A stretch of 24,070 bases of DNA from a virus. This document shows positions 2,034-14,873 of this stretch, piece after piece (position 1 is the first letter of the stretch; every line of letters starts with the position of its first letter). The DNA lies in the IMG/VR virus record IMGVR_UViG_3300045825_000208, positions 1 through 24,070 of that record. One strand, 5' to 3'. Below the pieces are notes generated by a model, which worked only from the letters and a program-made list of their open reading frames with translations, was not told the origin of the DNA and made no database searches. Position numbers and translations under genes: made by a program.

Positions 2034-2252
2034 ATGGCGACTTTTTACCTGACTTTTCCACGCGAGCTTCGTGCCCGGCGCGACCAGTACCAACGCATCG
2101 AGGCGCAGACCAAGGAGCAGGCGCAGCACCGCGCCTTTCAAATGTACGGCTATGCGTGGGACGCCGTTTACAGCGAAAGCCAGTTTGCGCCCTACCTGCA
2201 GCATGGTGGGCTGACCGAGTGGATTGACGACCCGACCGGGGTACGGACATGA
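2034..2252 (+). CDS. Hypothetical small phage protein
   Basis: A 72-residue protein. It begins with a short beta-strand (TFYLTFPRELRARRDQY), then has a helical segment rich in Glu, Gln and Ala (IEAQTKEQAQHRAFQMYG), and aromatic residues near the end. The pattern of a strand followed by a helix beginning at a T-x-E-x-A phrase resembles small phage proteins that sit beside recombination genes, but I cannot name it. It overlaps the start of the exonuclease gene by four bases (ATGA), placing it in the same translational unit. Confidence 0.55.
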   Translation: MATFYLTFPRELRARRDQYQRIEAQTKEQAQHRAFQMYGYAWDAVYSESQFAPYLQHGGLTEWIDDPTGVRT

Positions 2253-3127
2253 AGCCCGGCCTGTTCCTTGATCTGGACATCGACACCTACCACGCCGATA
2301 CCGACACGATCAGCAAGAGCGGGCTCGATGAAATCAATGTGTGCCCTGCCCTTTACTACGCGCGCCACCTGGACCCCAAGCGCCCGCCAGCACGGGAGCG
2401 GGCCGGGCAGTTAGAGGGTGCGCTGGCGCATTGTGCGATTCTGGAGCCTTCCCAGTTCGGCAAACGCTACGCGGTATTGCCCAAGGACGCACCGCGGCGG
2501 CCGACTGAGGCGCAGCTGAACGCGAAGAAAAACAGCCCGGAAAGTCTGGTAAGCATCGAATGGTGGAACGACTGGAACGCCACGCACGCAGGCGAGACGG
2601 TGATAACGAACGCCCAGGCCGAGGTCGCTTGGCGCCAGGCCGAGGCGGTGCAGCGCATTCCCGAAGTCGCGGACGTGCTGCGTGATGGACACGCGGAAGT
2701 ATCGGCGTGCTGGCGCGACGTGCTGAGCGGCGAATTGTGCCGGTGCAGGCCGGACTGGGTGTTTACGCTCAGGGACAAGTCGATAATCCTGCTGGACGTG
2801 AAAACCTTTTCCAGCGCGGCGCCCGATGAATTTCGGCGCCAGATCGCGCGCAAGCGCTATCACGTCCAAGCGGCTTACTACAGCCATGGCTACGCACGGG
2901 CCAGCGGCCGGGTTGTGCGCGGCTTTGTGTTTTTGACCGTGGAGCCGGAATTCCCGTTTCTGGCCAGCGCCTTGATGCTGGACGAAGACGGCATTGTGTC
3001 GGGCGAAGTGGCTTACCGGCGCAACCTGGACACTTACGCGCAGTGCAAGCGGGAGGGCCTTTGGCCGAGCTACAGCGACGAGATTGCAATTGTGTCACTG
3101 CCCAACTGGGCTTCGGAAGGAGTTTGA
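2249..3127 (+). CDS. RecE-like PD-(D/E)XK exonuclease (DUF3799-type)
   Basis: A 292-residue nuclease of the RecE/exonuclease VIII group, expected to chew 5' ends of double-stranded DNA and expose 3' single strands for the RecT protein encoded two genes on. Visible signatures: SKSGLDEINVCPALYYARHL near the N-terminus; the family helix LEGALAHCAILEP (55-67, H61); E150 in HAEVS; CRPDW (166-170, D169); the DxK core in LLDVKT (181-186, D183 and K185); and the QxxxY-type motif QAAYYSHGYA (207-216). The length matches stand-alone phage versions rather than the much longer E. coli RecE. All catalytic positions are present, so it is probably active. Confidence 0.85.
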   Translation: MKPGLFLDLDIDTYHADTDTISKSGLDEINVCPALYYARHLDPKRPPARERAGQLEGALAHCAILEPSQFGKRYAVLPKDAPRRPTEAQLNAKKNSPESLVSIEWWNDWNATHAGETVITNAQAEVAWRQAEAVQRIPEVADVLRDGHAEVSACWRDVLSGELCRCRPDWVFTLRDKSIILLDVKTFSSAAPDEFRRQIARKRYHVQAAYYSHGYARASGRVVRGFVFLTVEPEFPFLASALMLDEDGIVSGEVAYRRNLDTYAQCKREGLWPSYSDEIAIVSLPNWASEGV

Positions 3128-3384: not shown

Positions 3385-4461
3385 ATGACCACAACGACGT
3401 TTGAAAAGCTGGGCGCAGCGCCCGTGCCGTCCACGAGCGTAAAAGCGCCCTCTCCCGTGGCGGCGCTGTCGGCTTATCTGGACCGGCTGAAGCCGCAGAT
3501 GGCGCTTGCCCTGCCCAGGCACTTGAACCCGGACCGCATGATGCGGCTGGCTTTGACAGCCTTCAGCCAAAACCGTGCGCTGCAGGCGTGCACGCCGCAA
3601 TCCATCGCCGCCAGTTTGATGACGGCCGGGCAGCTGGGGCTGGAGCCGGGGATTAACGGGGCTGGGTTTCTGATTCCGTATGGGGAAAATTGCACCTTTG
3701 TACCGGGCTGGCGCGGGCTGGTTGATCTGGTATCACGCTCCGGGCTGGCCACGGTGTTCACTGGCGTTATTTTCAGTGACCAGACCTATCGGTTTACCGA
3801 TGGCGCCAGGCGCGATCTGGTGATTGAAAACGAGACGGACCTGGACGCACCGGAGGACATCACGCACGCCTATGCCGTGGGCTGGGTACGCGGTGCGGAC
3901 TTGCCGCATATTGAACTATGGCGCGTCAGCAAAATCGCCAAGCACCGCGACAAGTACAACAAAGTGGGGCAGAAGCACTACAGTTTTCGGGACTGGGAAA
4001 TGTACGCGCGCAAGGTGCCGCTGCTGCAAGTGCTGAAGTACATGCCGTGCTCGGTGGAAGTGTCCAATGCGGTGCTGGTATCCCACGCAGCGGAAGAAGG
4101 CCGACCGGCTTTTATCGAGCAGAACTTTGTGTCACTGGCCGGTGATACATCAATGCTGGAAAAGCCTGCACCGAATCCGCCACCGACGCCCAGGCGCGGC
4201 AGGCCGCCAGCTGCGAAGACCGAGCCCGAGGCGCCAGCGCCAGCACCAGCGGCGCCAGCACCAGAGGCCAAGCCTGAGCAGGTGCGCGAGCCGGTGATTA
4301 CGTATGCCCAGGTGCTTGACAAGATGATCAAGGCCAAGACGCCCCAAGCGCTTGATGACGCGGCGCAGTTGATGGGGGAGCTTGATTCGCCGGAGTTGCG
4401 GCGGGAGTTGAACTTGAAGTATGTGGCGCTGCGCGATGAACTGGGAGAAACCGATGCTTGA
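3385..4461 (+). CDS. recT: RecT-family single-strand annealing protein
   Basis: A 358-residue recombinase that coats exposed 3' single strands and anneals them to complementary DNA. The RecT core spans about residues 25-245: PRHLNPDRMMRLALTAFSQN, SIAASLMTAGQLGLEPG, NGAGFLIPYGENCTFVPGWR and FRDWEMYARKVPLLQVLKYMP are typical. E. coli RecT is about 270 residues; this one has an added tail. That tail is an Ala/Pro linker (260-300) with an AT-hook-like RRGRPP (270-275) and a helical C-terminal domain (303-355, ITYAQVLDKMIKAKTPQALD and onward). It starts with an ATG just after the previous gene and overlaps the next start by eight bases. Together with the exonuclease at 2249 it forms a classic recombination pair. 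Confidence 0.9.
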   Translation: MTTTTFEKLGAAPVPSTSVKAPSPVAALSAYLDRLKPQMALALPRHLNPDRMMRLALTAFSQNRALQACTPQSIAASLMTAGQLGLEPGINGAGFLIPYGENCTFVPGWRGLVDLVSRSGLATVFTGVIFSDQTYRFTDGARRDLVIENETDLDAPEDITHAYAVGWVRGADLPHIELWRVSKIAKHRDKYNKVGQKHYSFRDWEMYARKVPLLQVLKYMPCSVEVSNAVLVSHAAEEGRPAFIEQNFVSLAGDTSMLEKPAPNPPPTPRRGRPPAAKTEPEAPAPAPAAPAPEAKPEQVREPVITYAQVLDKMIKAKTPQALDDAAQLMGELDSPELRRELNLKYVALRDELGETDA

Positions 4462-8320: not shown

Positions 8321-8665
8321 ATGGCTGAAACTAATCAAAAGTCTGGCCAGAATCTAAATAAAGGTGCTGGCCGTGGTGGTAAACGTGCTGGCGCCGGGCG
8401 CCCGCCCGGTACAGCGTCTGTCAAAACACGCGACGTTGCAGAGAAACTAATCAAAAGCGGTCGTGCCACGCCGCTGGAGGTTTTGCTGGAGTGCATGGCC
8501 ATGGCCTACCGTAAAAAGGAATGGCCTGCGGCGGCTGAATATGCCAGGGCCGCGGCGCCCTACATTCACGCCAGACTGCAGGCCGTGGAAATGACCGGGC
8601 GCGATGGCAAGGACCTGACAGCGCCAGCGCAGCCGGTGATTCACCTGACCATCAAGAAAGCATGA
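8321..8665 (+). CDS. terS: Probable terminase small subunit
   Basis: A 114-residue protein directly before the large terminase, overlapping it by four bases. It has a basic glycine-rich N-terminus with an AT-hook-like GKRAGAGRPPG (20-30), suited to DNA contact, then helices VAEKLIKSGRATPLEVLLEC and WPAAAEYARAAAPYIHARLQ, and an end LTAPAQPVIHLTIKK. The A-A-P-Y-x-H-x-R-L phrase with a preceding Ala-rich helix is common in small proteins annotated as phage terminase small subunits. Terminase small subunits recognise the packaging site and stimulate the large subunit. No pac site can be pointed out. The start at 8321 is uncertain because no ribosome site is evident. Confidence 0.65.
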   Translation: MAETNQKSGQNLNKGAGRGGKRAGAGRPPGTASVKTRDVAEKLIKSGRATPLEVLLECMAMAYRKKEWPAAAEYARAAAPYIHARLQAVEMTGRDGKDLTAPAQPVIHLTIKKA

Positions 8666-10137
8666 CGCCAGACGCGGCGGCCAGTACAAGCCTCGATCTG
8701 CACATAGAGCTACACCCGAAGCAGGGGCTGGCGTACTGGTCTGCCGCGACTGAAATACTCTTTGGTGGGGCTGCAGGCGGCGGCAAGTCTTTCTTCATGC
8801 GTGTGGCGGCTGTGCTCTGGTGCGCAGCGATTCCGGGGCTGCAGGTTTATCTGTTTCGCCGCACCTATGACGACCTGATCAAAAACCACTACGAGGGGCC
8901 CAATGGGCTCCGCGCGATGCTGGCGGGCTGGGTGCTGTCCGGCTGGGCGCATTTGGTGGAGAACGAGGTCCGGTTCTGGAATGGTTCGCGCATTTACCTG
9001 TGCCACTGCGAGCATGAAAAGCACAGGTTCAAATACCAGGGGGCCGAAATTCACGTCTTGCTGGTCGATGAACTGACGCTGTTCACGGACGTGATCTATC
9101 GCTACCTGCGCTCTCGCGTGCGCATGACTGCCATCACCGTGCCAGCCGAGTACGCGGGCCGCTTTCCCCGCATCGTCTGCGCATCGAACCCCGGCAACAT
9201 CGGTCACGGCTTTGTCAAAAGCACGTTTGTGATGGATGGCGACGAGCCGGTTGAGCCGCTTGCGCTGCGCCAGATGCCGGACAGTGAGGGCGGGATGCTG
9301 CGCCAGTACATCCCTGCAACGCTGGACGATAACCCGTCCATGGCGCAAGACGACCCAGCCTATCGGGCACGCATCCGCGGCATGGGCAATGCCAGTCTGG
9401 TGCGGGCGTTTGAACTGGGCGACTGGAACGCGGTGCTGGGCTCCTACCTTGAAGGCGTCTGGGAAGAATCGGCGCATGTGGTGGAGCCCTTTATCATCCC
9501 GTCAACGTGGAAAATCTGGCGCTCCATGGACTGGGGCTATGCGGCGCCCTACTCGGTCCACTGGTACGCCATGGACTTTGACGGCTGCGTGTATATCTGG
9601 CGCGAACTGTACGGCTATGGCGGTGCGCCCAACACGGGCACCAAGGAGGAGGCCAGCGCGGTCGCGGCGAAAATCAGGAACATCGAGCGCAGCGACGAGC
9701 GCATGGGCTACGAATACCGGCTGAACCCGGCCGACAGCGCGATATTCAGCAACATCGGCGCCGAGCAGACGATTGCGCGCATCTTTCGCAAAGCTGGCGT
9801 GAAGTGGGTCGAATGCGTCAAGGGGCCGCGCTCTCGCGTCACGGGCGCGCAGCTGATTGTGGAAATGCTGCGCACCGGCAAGCTGAAGGTTTTCAGCAGC
9901 TGCAAGCACTGGATTCGCACTGTGCCCGCCCTCATGCCGGACGATCAAGACCCGGAGGACGTGGACACCAGCCAGGAGGACCATGCGTGGGATGACACCC
10001 GCTATGCGCTCGGTCCGATTCGCAGCACGCCGGAGAATGAAGCCCAAAAGTCAGAGGTGCTTGACGAACAGACGTATAAACACGGCGATGGATACCATAT
10101 CGAAGTAGGCAAGCCATGGAAACGCCCAACTCAATGA
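8662..10137 (+). CDS. terL: Terminase large subunit
   Basis: A 491-residue DNA-packaging motor that cuts the concatemer and pumps DNA into the prohead. ATPase: Walker A GGAAGGGKS (35-43, K42), Walker B LLVDEL (133-138, D136 and E137), coupling motif SNP (175-177). Nuclease (RNase H fold): D290 in RSMDWGYAAPYS, D358 in NPADSAIF, and D444/D445 in AWDDTRYAL. All motifs are present, so the protein should be functional. Its length is normal for headful or cos-type terminases with P22- or lambdoid-like heads; the packaging mode cannot be decided from this alone. It overlaps terS by four bases and the portal gene by 22. Confidence 0.95.
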   Translation: MTPDAAASTSLDLHIELHPKQGLAYWSAATEILFGGAAGGGKSFFMRVAAVLWCAAIPGLQVYLFRRTYDDLIKNHYEGPNGLRAMLAGWVLSGWAHLVENEVRFWNGSRIYLCHCEHEKHRFKYQGAEIHVLLVDELTLFTDVIYRYLRSRVRMTAITVPAEYAGRFPRIVCASNPGNIGHGFVKSTFVMDGDEPVEPLALRQMPDSEGGMLRQYIPATLDDNPSMAQDDPAYRARIRGMGNASLVRAFELGDWNAVLGSYLEGVWEESAHVVEPFIIPSTWKIWRSMDWGYAAPYSVHWYAMDFDGCVYIWRELYGYGGAPNTGTKEEASAVAAKIRNIERSDERMGYEYRLNPADSAIFSNIGAEQTIARIFRKAGVKWVECVKGPRSRVTGAQLIVEMLRTGKLKVFSSCKHWIRTVPALMPDDQDPEDVDTSQEDHAWDDTRYALGPIRSTPENEAQKSEVLDEQTYKHGDGYHIEVGKPWKRPTQ

Positions 10138-12116
10138 TGCCCGCTGTACCCGGCTTAGCGGCAGCACCCGCACCCGTAACAGGCTACCGCGAAACACCCG
10201 ACACGGACCCGCTGGCGCAGCGCTGGAACAAACGCATTGCCGCGGCGCGTACCCACTGGGAGAAATTCCACCAGCGGGTGCAGCACAACCAGACGCTGGC
10301 GACGGGCTTTGACTGGAGCGCGGACCCCAAGACCACGGCGTTTTACAGGCCCAGGGCGAACCTGATACACGGCACGATCACGTCCATCCTGCCCAATATC
10401 TACGCGCGCAACCCGGAAATCAGTGCCAGCGGCACGCACAAGGCGCGCGACCTGAAACTCTTTTGCAAGACCATCCAAGCGGTGACAAACCGGGCGCTGG
10501 AAGATGCCGACCTCAAGGGCCGGGCCAAGATGACGGTGCGCGCGGCGCTGGTGGCCAGCTTTGGGATTGTCAAGGTCCTGTATCAACGCGACATCACCAC
10601 CGACCCGATTATCAAGAGCCGCATCCAGGACACGCAGGACAACATTCAGGCTATCGAGCGCTTGATTGCCGACCTTGAAGACCCCGAACAGCGCGGCGAT
10701 CTGGAGGCCAAGCAGGCCGCACTCAATCAGATGATGGCGGCCTTGTCTGAAAAGGTGGAAGTGACGGCGTCCGAGGGCATTGTGCTGGACCGGGTGCTGA
10801 CGGACAATTTTCTGATTGACCCGGACGTGTGTGAATTTTGGGACTACAAGGACGCGGATTGGCAATGCCAGATCATTCCGATGAAGAAGTCCAGCGCAGA
10901 GGCGCTCTACAAGATCAAGCTGAACAATGCCAAAGCCTACCAGGTGGGCAGCAACAGCATGAAGCGCGCGGGCGGCGATGCCCGGCTGGGCGCCGGGACC
11001 GTGGGCGTGCTCGATGATGACAAGCAGATTGCGATTCTGGAAATATGGGACAAGGTGAGCCAGCGCGTCTTCACCATGGCCGAGGGCTGCGATTACTGGG
11101 TGAAAGAGCCCTACAGCCCGCCCAAGGCTGGAGAGCGCTGGTATCCGTATTTTCTGCTGCCGTTCAATGTGGTCGTGGGCAGTTTCGTGGCGCCGTCCAT
11201 GGTGGACCTGACGACCAAGCTGCAGGACGAGCACAACGACGCGCGCGACGCCTTCAACAAGCACAGGAAGCTATGCCTGCCGGGCTGGATTGCGGGCTCC
11301 GAGGTATCGGAGAAAAGCATCAAGCGCTACACCGACAGCGCCATGGGCGAAGTCACGATCATTGACAGCGAGGGCAAGCCGCTGCAGTCGGTCATCATCC
11401 CGCGCCAGCCGCCACCAATCGACCCGCAGGTGTACGACACGGGCGCGGTACGCTATGACTGGGAGCAGGTGACCGGCTTGCAGGACGCGGCCAGGGGCTC
11501 AATGGTGGAGGCCAAGACTGCCACCGAGGCCAACATCCTGCAGCAAAGCCTGAGCGGGCGCGTGGCCGAATTCCGCGACCAGGTGGAGGACTGGCTGCAG
11601 GAGATAGCGCGCTACACGGCGCAGATACTGCTGCAGGAACTGACCGCGCCACAGGTCGAACGCATCATGGGGCCACCGGGCGAGAAGATGATTGCCACGC
11701 CCATGGGCATGATGCCAGTCCCCGAACCGCAATACGACTGGCCAGAGTTAAGCCGTGATGACGTGTTCGGCATGATTGAAATGAAGATCAGGGCAGGCAC
11801 CACGGGGGCGCCGGACCGGGCCGAACAACAGGATTCATGGGGCAAGATACTGCCCGTGCTGCAGGGGCTGATTACGCAAATCCTGCAGATACGCGCGAGC
11901 GGCATGGATGCCGAACCGCTGGTGAACCTGCTGCGTGAATCGCTGACGCGCTTCGATGAACGGCTTGAAATCGAGGACTTCATCCCGAAAGCACCAGCAC
12001 CGCAGCCCGCGCCGATGATGCCGCCAGGCTTGCCGGGCATGGCCGCTGGAGGGCCAGCACAGGCAGCGGGGCCACCACCGCCACCCATGAACGCCCAACC
12101 AGCACCCATGCAATAG
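10116..12116 (+). CDS. Portal protein, P22 gp1-like
   Basis: A 666-residue protein forming the dodecameric ring through which DNA enters and leaves the head. Typical segments are YRPRANLIHGTITSILPNIY with ARNPEI (portal N-terminal domain), a central region with VLTDNFLIDPD and PMVDLTTKLQDEHNDARDAF-like sequence (MVDLTTKLQDEHNDARDAFN), and QVTGLQDAARGSMVEAKTAT leading to the long crown helices. P22 portal is 725 residues, so the size is comparable. Residues about 634-666 are a Pro/Met/Ala-rich, flexible tail. A stretch of charged helix (about 168-210) looks like an inserted coiled coil. The start overlaps terL by 22 bases, and the ATG at 10116 is the first good choice. Confidence 0.85.
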   Translation: METPNSMMPAVPGLAAAPAPVTGYRETPDTDPLAQRWNKRIAAARTHWEKFHQRVQHNQTLATGFDWSADPKTTAFYRPRANLIHGTITSILPNIYARNPEISASGTHKARDLKLFCKTIQAVTNRALEDADLKGRAKMTVRAALVASFGIVKVLYQRDITTDPIIKSRIQDTQDNIQAIERLIADLEDPEQRGDLEAKQAALNQMMAALSEKVEVTASEGIVLDRVLTDNFLIDPDVCEFWDYKDADWQCQIIPMKKSSAEALYKIKLNNAKAYQVGSNSMKRAGGDARLGAGTVGVLDDDKQIAILEIWDKVSQRVFTMAEGCDYWVKEPYSPPKAGERWYPYFLLPFNVVVGSFVAPSMVDLTTKLQDEHNDARDAFNKHRKLCLPGWIAGSEVSEKSIKRYTDSAMGEVTIIDSEGKPLQSVIIPRQPPPIDPQVYDTGAVRYDWEQVTGLQDAARGSMVEAKTATEANILQQSLSGRVAEFRDQVEDWLQEIARYTAQILLQELTAPQVERIMGPPGEKMIATPMGMMPVPEPQYDWPELSRDDVFGMIEMKIRAGTTGAPDRAEQQDSWGKILPVLQGLITQILQIRASGMDAEPLVNLLRESLTRFDERLEIEDFIPKAPAPQPAPMMPPGLPGMAAGGPAQAAGPPPPPMNAQPAPMQ

Positions 12117-12438: not shown

Positions 12439-13530
12439 ATGCCACCAGAACCAGAAAGCCCCAGCGCCACCGAAACCGCGATGGACAGCATTGGCCAGGG
12501 CACGCCAGCGCCCGCACCGGAACAGTCGGCAGCGCCAGCGGCACCGCAGGCAGACAAAGCGCCAGCACCAGCGCCCGAGGTTCATCAGGAGGGCGAGCCG
12601 CGGCACTCTGACAAATTCACGGAATTGCTTGATTCCATGAGCGCGCCGGACCCGAACGGGCCACCGGACAAGCCGGAAAAGCCGGACACACCAGAAGCCA
12701 AGCCAGCCGAGGCCGCGGCGCCGGGCCAGCCCGCCAAGGCGCCCGCACCGGCAGCGCCAGTCAACGAGGAAGCTGAATTACTGGAGGGCGTGCGCTCGGA
12801 CCGGGGCAAGGAGCGCATACGCCAGATGTTTCAGGAGAAGAAGGCGCTGGAGCAGGACGTGGGCGAATTCCGCCAGCTGGTGAACAACACCGGCATGACG
12901 CCTGAGCAGTTCGCGCAGACGCTGGAATTCGGGCGATTGGTCAACACCGGCGACGAGAAGAACATCCGCGTGGCCATCGAAATGATCGAGGCGCAGCGCA
13001 CCGAGCTTTACAAGCGCTTGGGCGCCGAGGCGCCGGGCGTGGACTTGCTGGCCGATCAGGCCGACTTGCGCCAGGCTGTGGACGATATGGAGATTACGCG
13101 CGAGCGCGCGCTGGAACTGGCCAGGCTGCGCAGGCAGAACGCGCAGCAGCTGCAAAGCCAGCAGGCCACCCAGCAAGCGCAGGAAAGCCAGCAGAAGTAT
13201 GCGCAGACCGTGCAGCAGGCGGCGGCCACCATGGACGCCTACCTCAATTCACGGGCGGGCGAGGCGGACCACAGTTTGCGCATCAAGGCGCTGACGGACC
13301 ATTTCAATAACCCGGCGAACATGCAGAACTTCGTGACGAAGTACGCGCCGGAGTTGTGGCTGGACACCGTGCGCCTGCTTTACGACAACGTGGCCGTACC
13401 ACGCACGGCGCCCAGGCCGGGCGGCCAGCAGCCCATTCATTCGCGGCCGTCCGTGCTGGGACAGGCCACGATCAACGGCGAATCACCCATGGAACGCATG
13501 GCGCGGCGTCTGGATTCCATGGGCATTTAA
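12439..13530 (+). CDS. Putative scaffolding protein
   Basis: A 363-residue protein in the standard scaffold position, between portal and coat. The first 110 residues are Ala/Pro/Glu-rich and disordered. From 110 onward it is helical: ELLEGVRSDRGKERIRQMFQ, a Met/Glu-rich region, and a Gln/Ala-rich coiled coil at about 222-262. A short charged C-terminus (PMERMARRLDSMGI) could bind coat, as helix-turn-helix tails of P22-type scaffolds do. High polarity, coiled coil and position are all typical of proteins that fill and shape the prohead and then leave or are degraded. No protease domain is visible in it or nearby. The ribosome site TAGGAG precedes the ATG. Confidence 0.75.
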   Translation: MPPEPESPSATETAMDSIGQGTPAPAPEQSAAPAAPQADKAPAPAPEVHQEGEPRHSDKFTELLDSMSAPDPNGPPDKPEKPDTPEAKPAEAAAPGQPAKAPAPAAPVNEEAELLEGVRSDRGKERIRQMFQEKKALEQDVGEFRQLVNNTGMTPEQFAQTLEFGRLVNTGDEKNIRVAIEMIEAQRTELYKRLGAEAPGVDLLADQADLRQAVDDMEITRERALELARLRRQNAQQLQSQQATQQAQESQQKYAQTVQQAAATMDAYLNSRAGEADHSLRIKALTDHFNNPANMQNFVTKYAPELWLDTVRLLYDNVAVPRTAPRPGGQQPIHSRPSVLGQATINGESPMERMARRLDSMGI

Positions 13531-13826
13531 AACAAAAGTCCGGCAAGGGTTGGACACAGCGCCAAAATAGCGCCGTTAGTTTGCAAGGGCGCGAGATGGC
13601 CAGACTTCAAGGTGCAGCGGGATTCACCGTCCGCAGTCAGGCCAGCAACGCCCGCGCAGAACACGCCGAATTTATCGCTGCTACCGTGGGGGCCGCGTCC
13701 CACAGCGCATAGCACTGCCGAGCGAAGCGTATCCGAGTCGCGCCGGAACTCTGCAGGGCTGAACCGGGCGGGCTTGCGTGCCGCCGACGGCGTGAAAGGT
13801 TTTTTAACTTTTCACGAAAGCAGCAC
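13531..13826 (+). promoter_or_regulatory. Long structured leader before the major capsid gene
   Basis: The largest gap in the late operon. Complementary segments include GCGCC (13570-13574) with GGCGC (13588-13592) and GTGGG with CCCAC around 13687-13704. A strong 11-bp hairpin with a TTTT loop has arms 13791-13801 and 13806-13816 (one G-T pair) and ends 10 bases before the coat ATG. There is no T-run after the hairpin. A 38-codon frame (13596-13712) is possible but has no clear support. The region may hold an RNA processing site, a stabiliser, or a small RNA. Confidence 0.5.
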
Positions 13827-14873
13827 ATGCCTATCTCAGCCCCCGACCTGGCTCAACTCGCCAAGGTTTCACTGGACGACTACATGCGCAATGTAGTGGT
13901 CGATCAAATCGCCTCGGAACGCCCGCTCCTGAAGAAACTCATGGCGGGCCGCAAACTGTTCCTTGGTGCAAAACAAAATATTGTGGTCAATATCAGGACC
14001 AACTACGGCTCCAACTTCGGCTGGGCCTACGGTGAGGACCCGGTGATCTTCAACAAACGCAACACGACCGAACTGGCCGCCTTCCCGTGGCGCCGGGCCG
14101 TCGATGGCTTGTATCTGGACTATGACCGGCTGTTTGGCGCTGGTATCAAGGTGCGTGAAGGCGAACGCGGCGCCTACAAGCTGGAGCAAAACGAGAAGGT
14201 GCAGCTGCTTAATTTGCTGGACGAGCAAATGGAGTCGCTGCGCGAAGGCTTCATGGAAAAGCTGGACCTGGAACTACACCGCAATGGCACTTCGGATGTG
14301 GACGCCCTTGCCGGGCTCGATGCACTCGTACCGCTTAATCCAGCGGTAGGGGTCATTGGTGGACTGGACAGGGCTACCGCTCTGTACTGGCGTCCGTATG
14401 CCGAAACCGGCATTGTGTCGGCGACGGCGGGCCTGCTGCGCTCTCGCATGGAACTGATGTGGCGCCGGGCGATTCGCAACGGCGGTGCACCGGACTTTAT
14501 CCTTGCTGGCGGCGCCTTCATTGACGCTTACGCGGCCTCGATCACGCTGACGCAGAACACCGACGCAGGCACCAGCAAGCGCATCGACATATCGACGGGC
14601 ACGGGCGCCAGTACGGGCGTGTTTTACAAGGGCATCGAAATTACCTACGACCCGCAGTTTGAGGTGCTGGATGCGCTGGAAGCGCCTGCTATCCCGTGGG
14701 AGAAACGCTGCTACTTCCTCAACTCGAAGTTCCTGAAGTACCGCGACGACGACATGGACGTGGTCACGCCAGTGCGCCCGCACGACATCCTCGCCTTGTA
14801 TGCCATGGTCAATCTGCGCTGCGCGCTGACGCTGACACGCGGCAACTCGCAGGCCGTGATTGCCATTGCCTGA
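13827..14873 (+). CDS. Major capsid protein
   Basis: A 348-residue coat protein, expected to adopt the HK97 fold. It starts MPISAPDLAQLAKVSLDDYM; then LLKKLMAGRKLFLGAKQNIV begins the first domain; LNLLDEQMESLREGFMEKLD is the long spine-type helix; the end KYRDDDMDVVTPVRPHDILA with VNLRCALTLTRGNSQAVIAI is a typical coat C-terminus. No prohead protease gene or obvious delta domain is visible, so assembly probably depends on the separate scaffold. It is preceded by the structured leader and a weak ribosome site (GAAAG). The coat would be the most abundant product of the operon. Confidence 0.8.
   Translation: MPISAPDLAQLAKVSLDDYMRNVVVDQIASERPLLKKLMAGRKLFLGAKQNIVVNIRTNYGSNFGWAYGEDPVIFNKRNTTELAAFPWRRAVDGLYLDYDRLFGAGIKVREGERGAYKLEQNEKVQLLNLLDEQMESLREGFMEKLDLELHRNGTSDVDALAGLDALVPLNPAVGVIGGLDRATALYWRPYAETGIVSATAGLLRSRMELMWRRAIRNGGAPDFILAGGAFIDAYAASITLTQNTDAGTSKRIDISTGTGASTGVFYKGIEITYDPQFEVLDALEAPAIPWEKRCYFLNSKFLKYRDDDMDVVTPVRPHDILALYAMVNLRCALTLTRGNSQAVIAIA

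Follow-up and report, generated by a model that had tools for sequence, protein, structure and literature searches.

The gap of 296 bases in front of the coat gene of this phage almost certainly holds a conserved structured RNA, and the sequences collected indicate that such a leader is common to many prophages of beta- and gamma-proteobacteria. We think it probable that the mRNA of the major capsid protein (MCP) carries the gap as its 5′ untranslated leader and that this leader works in cis as a translational switch, by exchange of the pairing around the SD. In the window (the whole 24,070-nucleotide stretch of viral DNA that was analysed) the late genes run in the order terminase large subunit (8662–10137), portal (10116–12116), a 99-residue ORF, a 363-residue ORF, the gap and MCP. 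Adjacent late genes overlap or are spaced by 10–21 bases; the gap spans exactly 13531–13826, as the upstream ORF stops at 13530 and the ATG of MCP lies at 13827. The features of the leader and its surroundings are collected in Table 1.

Table 1. Features of the MCP leader and flanking genes in the window (paired and double-changed values are from the alignments described in the text)
Feature	Position	Strand	Basis
Upstream ORF, 363 aa, scaffold-position protein	12439–13530		no recognised family
A-rich box AACAAAAGTCC at the leader 5′ end, inferred upstream promoter element	13531–13541	+	box, 21 nt, hexamer pattern
−10-like hexamer CAAAAT	13563–13568	+	relatives AATAAT/GATAAT/CATACT
5′ arm P0 (13587–13591 with 13649–13653), bearing module-1 hairpin 13617–13634	13587–13653	+	minimum free energy fold of the window; arm covariation, 23 sequences
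P1, long-range closing helix (13662–13668 CACGCCG with 13788–13794 CGGCGTG)	13662–13794	+	94.1% of cells paired; 4/7 pairs double-changed
J1/2, conserved linker; putative anti-SD 13677–13682 GCTGCT against 13819–13824 AGCAGC	13669–13685	+	complementarity to start region
P2 hairpin GTGGG-GGCCGCGT-CCCAC (module 2); loop in relatives GGTCGCGT	13686–13703	+	100% of cells paired; 3/5 pairs double-changed
Pseudoknot, 13705–13709 GCGCA with 13775–13779 TGCGT in the P3 loop	13705–13779	+	96.9% of cells paired; 31 double-change cells
Arm P2.2/P2.1 (module 3), 13715–13718 with 13753–13756	13715–13756	+	two helices, 76.7% and 95.3% paired
P2.1 hairpin TCCG-AGTCGCGC-CGGA	13732–13747	+	within arm P2.2/P2.1
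P3 hairpin GGCGG-GCTTGCGTG-CCGCC	13767–13785	+	85.9% paired; 5/5 pairs double-changed
P4, the 11-bp hairpin of the earlier note	13791–13816	+	from sequence; overlaps the last 4 nt of P1 in the window
Translation start region GAAAGCAGCAC-ATG	13816–13829	+	relatives CGGAGCAGCGAC / GGAGCGACAA
Major capsid protein (major head protein) gene, regulated gene	13827–14873	+	phrog_9953, E 2e-33

The leader is conserved over at least two clades, and its core is the same in both. Helix P1 closes the core around two hairpins, P2, the loop of which is of the UCGC type, and P3, and a pseudoknot links J2/3 to the loop of P3. In clade 1a, the clade of the window, the leader further comprises the 5′ arm and a hairpin module with a GUCGCG loop, present in as many as three copies; clade 1 also includes a Polynucleobacter group. 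An earlier note on this DNA had suggested aligning the gap across relatives and looking for covarying stems, and the stems do covary. In the core alignment of clade 1 (A3; 39 sequences and 35 pairs in seven helices, excluding L034, L057, L061, L113 and the Polynucleobacter group) 90.7% of the cells are paired, compared with 76.6% on shuffling, and there are 182 double-change cells, compared with 57.7 on shuffling and at most 68 in slid controls; none of 500 shuffles reaches these values. The 5′ arm, aligned in 23 sequences (A5), is 89.8% paired (77.5% shuffled) with 70 double-change cells (23.3 shuffled), values again reached by 0/500 shuffles. The pseudoknot strands change together (GGACC/GGTCT, GCACC/GGTGT, GCGTA/CACGC and GAGCC/GGCTT among 76 leaders), although this tally is weak: for GCGC-type knots the first fitting hairpin is often module 3 and not P3, and L034 and L061 are unparsed. 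Outside P4 the G–U cells (117) are far above the A–C cells (17), an indication that the conserved molecule is RNA of the + strand. It is the pairing of bases that is conserved, amid many insertions and deletions, and not a reading frame; the stems are thus conserved in relatives, and the decayed gene that the earlier note had also considered does not fit. The distance between core and SD is variable, with ∼130 nt extra in L113. Insertions of tens of bases to ∼130 nt between the core and the start codon, in or after P4, are seen in L057, L113 and L124.

P4 (CGTGAAAGGTT-TTTT-AACTTTTCACG, 11 bp including one G–U, with 13791–13801 paired to 13806–13816) stops 10 bases before the ATG. The earlier note had singled out this hairpin and the 296-base gap in an otherwise tight late operon; the hairpin lies exactly where it was placed, and the ORF coordinates agree with the gap. 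To judge from the alignments, P4 is the least informative part of the leader. It is 82.1% paired in A3 with all changes one-sided, and it has 11 bp in the window and is modelled at 5–6 bp in relatives. An intrinsic terminator or attenuator would be a GC-rich hairpin and then a U-tract before the start codon, whereas P4 in the window precedes AAAGCAGCAC; the terminator scan has a + strand match at 13777–13794, the T-run of which comes from within P4. RNase III processing hairpins are long, nearly uninterrupted duplexes, which P4 is not. Of the roles that the note had offered for the leader, two fared differently. RNA processing that raises coat yield finds no backing: no processing site is indicated, and the end hairpin is short, variable in length and has no visible counterpart in the leaders of the Polynucleobacter group. 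A regulatory element not yet described, on the other hand, is what the comparisons point to, the leader being conserved, covarying, pseudoknotted, without a match in Rfam and always directly upstream of MCP.

Folding of the single sequence was not significant and is therefore excluded from the evidence: the whole gap has a z-score of −1.70, with 10 of 200 shuffles equally stable, and the gap minus the hairpin has a z-score of +0.47. Unconstrained folds repeatedly paired the ribosome-binding region with leader segments. The predicted accessibility of the SD, from folds without pseudoknots, is 0.25 compared with 0.34 for shuffled leaders, and such a low value would fit a default-off state.

Three hairpins are alike, namely P2, P2.1 and the one that ends the 5′ arm: a stem of 4–5 bp with variable sequence encloses a loop containing UCGC (often GUCGCG), and the stem is followed by A or AG; the P2 loop of the window deviates from GUCGCG. 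Hairpins with a [TC]CGC loop occur on average 2.76 times per leader, compared with 0.56 on shuffling (51 clade-1 leaders outside most of the Polynucleobacter group), and at least three are present in 29 of these 51, chance hairpins counted in. The module copies are nearly identical within the leader in L124 and L126. Leaders of the Polynucleobacter group have one module in 27/28 cases and two in 1/28; since P2 alone is common to all clades, repetition of the module is not essential. Polynucleobacter prophages (L062, L065, L072, L098 and others) also have two more conserved hairpins upstream of the leader, ∼200–340 nt before MCP (CGTCAAGGGCACCCC..CCCTTGACGG and ATGCCCAAGGTGG..CATTGGGCAT).

The MCP query gave 39 IMG/VR loci, and a query with the MCP alignment gave 80 viral loci and another 34 from bacterial genomes. 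The latter belong to Polynucleobacter, Achromobacter, Pusillimonas and Quisquiliibacterium and to MAGs with the labels Tepidimonas, Burkholderiaceae, Gallionellales, beta proteobacterium and, once, Bacteroidetes; Quisquiliibacterium transsilvanicum DSM 29781 and Pusillimonas minor YC-7-48 are carriers of the clade-1 element. MCP identity among leader-bearing prophages is mostly 62–75%, with a lowest value of 46%, and is 38% for the second clade. A gap of ∼300 nt recurs in many relatives and the leaders can be aligned end to end. Loci L001–L117, after L002 and L040 were dropped for want of a usable start, gave 116 leaders including the window; L096 was too short, and the remaining 115 were clustered to 71, to which eight later loci were added (79 leaders). 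A motif scan of DNA that used no protein input returned 24 stretches, every one an MCP leader: 16 are on known contigs and eight are new, with an MCP homologue downstream of all eight. When the spacing in the motif was 9 N instead of 8, eight stretches were returned; the only leaders were those of L121 (on the contig of L022) and L124, and the other six matched none of the window proteins tested.

The covariance model of clade 1 (R1), searched against whole records, found a single copy in six of seven; the record missed is a Polynucleobacter with a divergent form. In the order sample R1 matched three of 399 Burkholderiales genomes, one of them the centre genome, always upstream of MCP; among these genome matches is L156, in which the MCP is only 46% identical and the RNA is the same. 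In the class sample it matched one of 369 genomes, the centre genome itself, and the model of clade 2 (R2) matched none of the 369, a set without a positive control for R2. No phage record in our INPHARED copy has a close MCP (the best matches are 22–30% identical), the gap DNA gave only short chance matches to named phages and the DNA of the clade-1 leader L036 gave none. Among phages with a distant MCP, no R1 match above noise was seen in Mae-Yong1326-1, RHph_N65, Mx8, BUCT555, ppBjS10J-1, Mx9 or ctMlz233, and in three of these seven the gap before MCP is only 16–29 nt. Stenotrophomonas phage BUCT555 and Myxococcus phages Mx8 and Mx9 (L160 1640–1790, L159 1655–1800 and L162 1638–1800) have hairpin-bearing gaps of 141–163 nt before MCP, for which the R1 match is not significant; that of BUCT555 also has TTGACA-17-TAGAAT. 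These leaders are possibly remote cousins.

The closest plasmid match, with an MCP that is 38% identical, is a phage-like plasmid of Stenotrophomonas maltophilia, the MCP of which as a query gave 80 further loci. In this clade 2 the leaders have the core in a shorter form, with P1, P2, the pseudoknot and P3. Alignment of 34 representatives of the 81 clade-2 loci (A8) has 97.7% of cells paired and 14 of 18 pairs double-changed, with the pseudoknot 100% paired, and the clade-2 records searched have a single copy each (7/7). Each model recognises the other clade. R1, run on 29 of the 81 clade-2 loci, gave 18 matches with E ≤ 1 in 17 of the 29 sources (best E 6e-5), all at most 170 nt upstream of MCP; R2 matched 13 of 17 clade-1 sources (best E 7e-5), all in the MCP leader, missing the window, L011, L034 and L061, and matched none of the seven distant phages. 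The leaders of the two clades are homologous on this evidence. Rfam 15 at the gathering threshold has no match in the window, and at E ≤ 5 there is no leader match in four clade-1 loci, nine further loci (seven from the Polynucleobacter group) and ten clade-2 loci. The family Polynucleobacter-1 (RF01718) is tempting by name, but the Polynucleobacter leaders do not match it.

In three groups a segment of the leader is complementary to the MCP start region beyond chance and statistically coevolves with it, and its location differs by clade: J1/2 in clade 1a and the 3′ strand of P3 in clade 2 and the Polynucleobacter group. In statistics that ignore relatedness (78 of the 79 clade-1 leaders could be parsed, L023 having failed), J1/2 of clade 1a pairs with its own start region at −14.37 kcal/mol compared with −13.44 kcal/mol for swapped regions, which 0/2000 permutations match (n = 48). 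The signal is modest when L156 and L113 are left out (p = 0.0056, n = 45, window not included) or when the 39 rows of A3 are used (p = 0.017). L156 has both J1/2 and the start region rewritten (CAGTCACC with GGTGACTG), and they pair at 8/8 positions. Apart from the Polynucleobacter group, J1/2 complements the start region better than any other segment in 33 of 50 leaders of clade 1, including the window (−16.9 kcal/mol compared with −12.3 kcal/mol for the next-best segment), where the SD is weak; a better complement lies elsewhere in 17 of the 50, and L004, L033, L057, L058 and L059 have no good J1/2:SD helix. In clade 2, the P3 3′ strand pairs with its own SD at −11.51 kcal/mol compared with −9.59 kcal/mol for swapped ones (0/5000 permutations), with 11 double-change cells compared with 2.3 on shuffling (0/500); the pairs include CCTCGAA/TTCGAGG, CCTCGGA/TCCGAGG and CCTCAGA/TCTGAGG. 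In the Polynucleobacter group the same strand gives p = 0.001: a P3 with CTATC goes with GATAGG in 14/15 leaders and a P3 with CCATC with GATGG in 7/12, and in 17 of 28 leaders a better complement lies elsewhere. The P3 3′ strand was ruled out as the anti-SD of clade 1a (p = 0.35), as was J1/2 for clade 2 (p = 0.88), and J1/2 is unsupported in this role in the Polynucleobacter group (p = 0.31). Because the anti-SD is a strand of P3 in clade 2 and the Polynucleobacter group, P3, and hence the pseudoknot, cannot coexist there with the SD helix; this exclusivity is less clear in clade 1a, as J1/2 is unpaired in the conserved fold.

A promoter-like pattern, consisting of an A-rich box that ends in approximately ATCC, 21 nt and a −10-like hexamer, is found in 69 of 79 clade-1 leaders compared with 0.02 per shuffled leader, the pattern having been fitted to the data. 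The copy in the window is degenerate, and a plain sigma-70 scan of the window gave no promoter at the leader 5′ end. L113 has TTGACA-17-TATAAT at the promoter position, as read by eye, and under a lax rule a sigma-70-like pair is present in 21 of 34 clade-2 leaders, 18 of the 21 with a 16-nt spacer. Just upstream of the pattern, L034, L041 and L043 have hairpins resembling intrinsic terminators. We infer that the MCP mRNA has its own transcription start near the beginning of the gap. An imperfect dyad with a central TTGAC (GGGC-TTGAC-GCCC type) separates the A-rich box from the −10 hexamer in L006, L025 and L028 (∼300 nt before MCP) and in further leaders of clade 1a; its arms vary by phage and are still complementary, and it was not seen in the other groups.

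The leader has a conserved, covarying fold in the 5′ untranslated region of a single gene and, in clade 2 and the Polynucleobacter group, an anti-SD:SD pairing that excludes part of this fold. Translational switches commonly work through such alternative pairings. In the mechanism that we consider probable, transcription would start from the promoter at the head of the gap; in the pseudoknotted fold the SD would be free and coat would be made, and with the anti-SD paired coat synthesis would be off. In the groups that have the anti-SD in P3, any factor that stabilises the pseudoknotted fold would therefore free the SD. A binder of the UCGC/GUCGCG hairpins could set the balance, a phage or host protein being more likely than a metabolite, and would time or cap coat synthesis. 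Of the window proteins scanned, none was recognised as RNA-binding, which leaves the coat protein, the scaffold-position protein and host factors as candidates.

One special case of such a switch, quite possible though we would not presume it, is an autogenous operator, in which coat, scaffold or a small phage protein would bind the GUCGCG/UCGC hairpins and repress or activate MCP translation. The repetition of the module across the 51 leaders is what such an operator might show, and the element is present as a single copy per genome, is always beside MCP and stays with MCP where the terminase large subunit strongly differs; however, the window proteins that were scanned have no recognisable RNA-binding domain, and only the P2 copy is shared by all clades. 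More tentatively still, the leaders may form a family of RNA switches in beta- and gamma-proteobacterial prophages that sense a protein involved in assembly (free coat or scaffold), or another late signal, through these hairpins and gate coat translation by pseudoknot/anti-SD exchange, a feedback that would match coat supply to capsid assembly.

It is unlikely that the leader is a strong but passive one, in which a promoter and a stable 5′ structure protect the mRNA and lift coat yield with no switching. Coat protein is needed in large amounts, a promoter-like box is present and the terminator-like hairpins of L034, L041 and L043 suggest a separate transcription unit, but protection needs no conserved loops, pseudoknot or coevolving SD complementarity, and the predicted SD accessibility lies below, not above, that of shuffled leaders. 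We also consider improbable another special case of the switch, a metabolite riboswitch in a phage structural operon: the compact pseudoknotted domain with near-invariant unpaired bases and then, in clade 2, a mutually exclusive SD helix would suit one, although the element is found only upstream of one phage gene, has few conserved loop bases and stands in a context that suggests no ligand. There is just as little reason to expect that the leader is only the incidental site of a small RNA (processed or acting in trans) or of an RNA-based antitermination element; the variable distance to the SD (L113, L057 and L124) would agree with this, but there is no terminator at the 3′ end, the location is single and the element coevolves with the SD of the adjacent gene. 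A DNA-level signal (a packaging or replication site) or a decayed gene can be practically dismissed in spite of the inverted repeats, given the excess of G–U over A–C cells on the + strand, the covarying pseudoknot and an overlapping ORF (13612–13896) that has no protein family match.

Translational riboswitches and the leaders of ribosomal-protein mRNAs expose or hide the SD, and the switch that we favour resembles them in combining a conserved folded domain with a mutually exclusive anti-SD:SD helix, most clearly in clade 2; it differs in that the leader has no Rfam match and the regulated gene is a phage MCP. Capsid proteins are required in large, well-timed amounts, and their control in tailed phages is mostly credited to promoters and gene order. 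If our reading is true, the leader would define a new RNA family and be one of the few examples of a tailed-phage structural gene controlled at the RNA level, and its covariance models could be used to seek more members.

By its mode of working, the nearest phage precedent would be the pseudoknot of the T4 gene 32 leader in gp32 autoregulation. According to PMC3014915, this is likewise a phage mRNA leader with a pseudoknot upstream of the start codon (67 nt upstream) and control of the translation of the adjacent gene. There gp32 spreads over an unstructured A+U-rich start region; the MCP leader, in contrast, has several hairpins, an explicit putative anti-SD and a coat gene. The glutamine riboswitch of phage Melnitz is also a phage-borne cis-regulatory RNA (PMC9004378, where riboswitches are termed a rare feature in phages), but it is of host type, beside a tmRNA gene and unrelated to capsid genes. 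The STAXI motif likewise occurs in two or three repeats (PMC2864571) but is itself the repeated pseudoknot and lies near genes for DNA-handling proteins, whereas the MCP leader does not match Rfam. PMC2864571 and PMC8040213 report many candidate RNAs, and the word ‘capsid’ is absent from the main text of both. No paper describing the MCP leader RNA was found in open-licence PMC text.

The terminase large subunits of L124, L126, L128, L130 and L148 are 38–63% identical to that of the window (8662–10137), and in these loci the stretch from the portal, through the ORF in front of the leader and the leader itself, to MCP is kept together. With the terminase variable and the stretch from portal to MCP kept, the head genes seem to travel as a block. 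The window also has an integrase fragment at its edge (4–648) and genes for an exonuclease VIII-like protein (2249–3127) and RecT (3385–4461), and therefore the phage appears to be temperate, with its own recombination genes.
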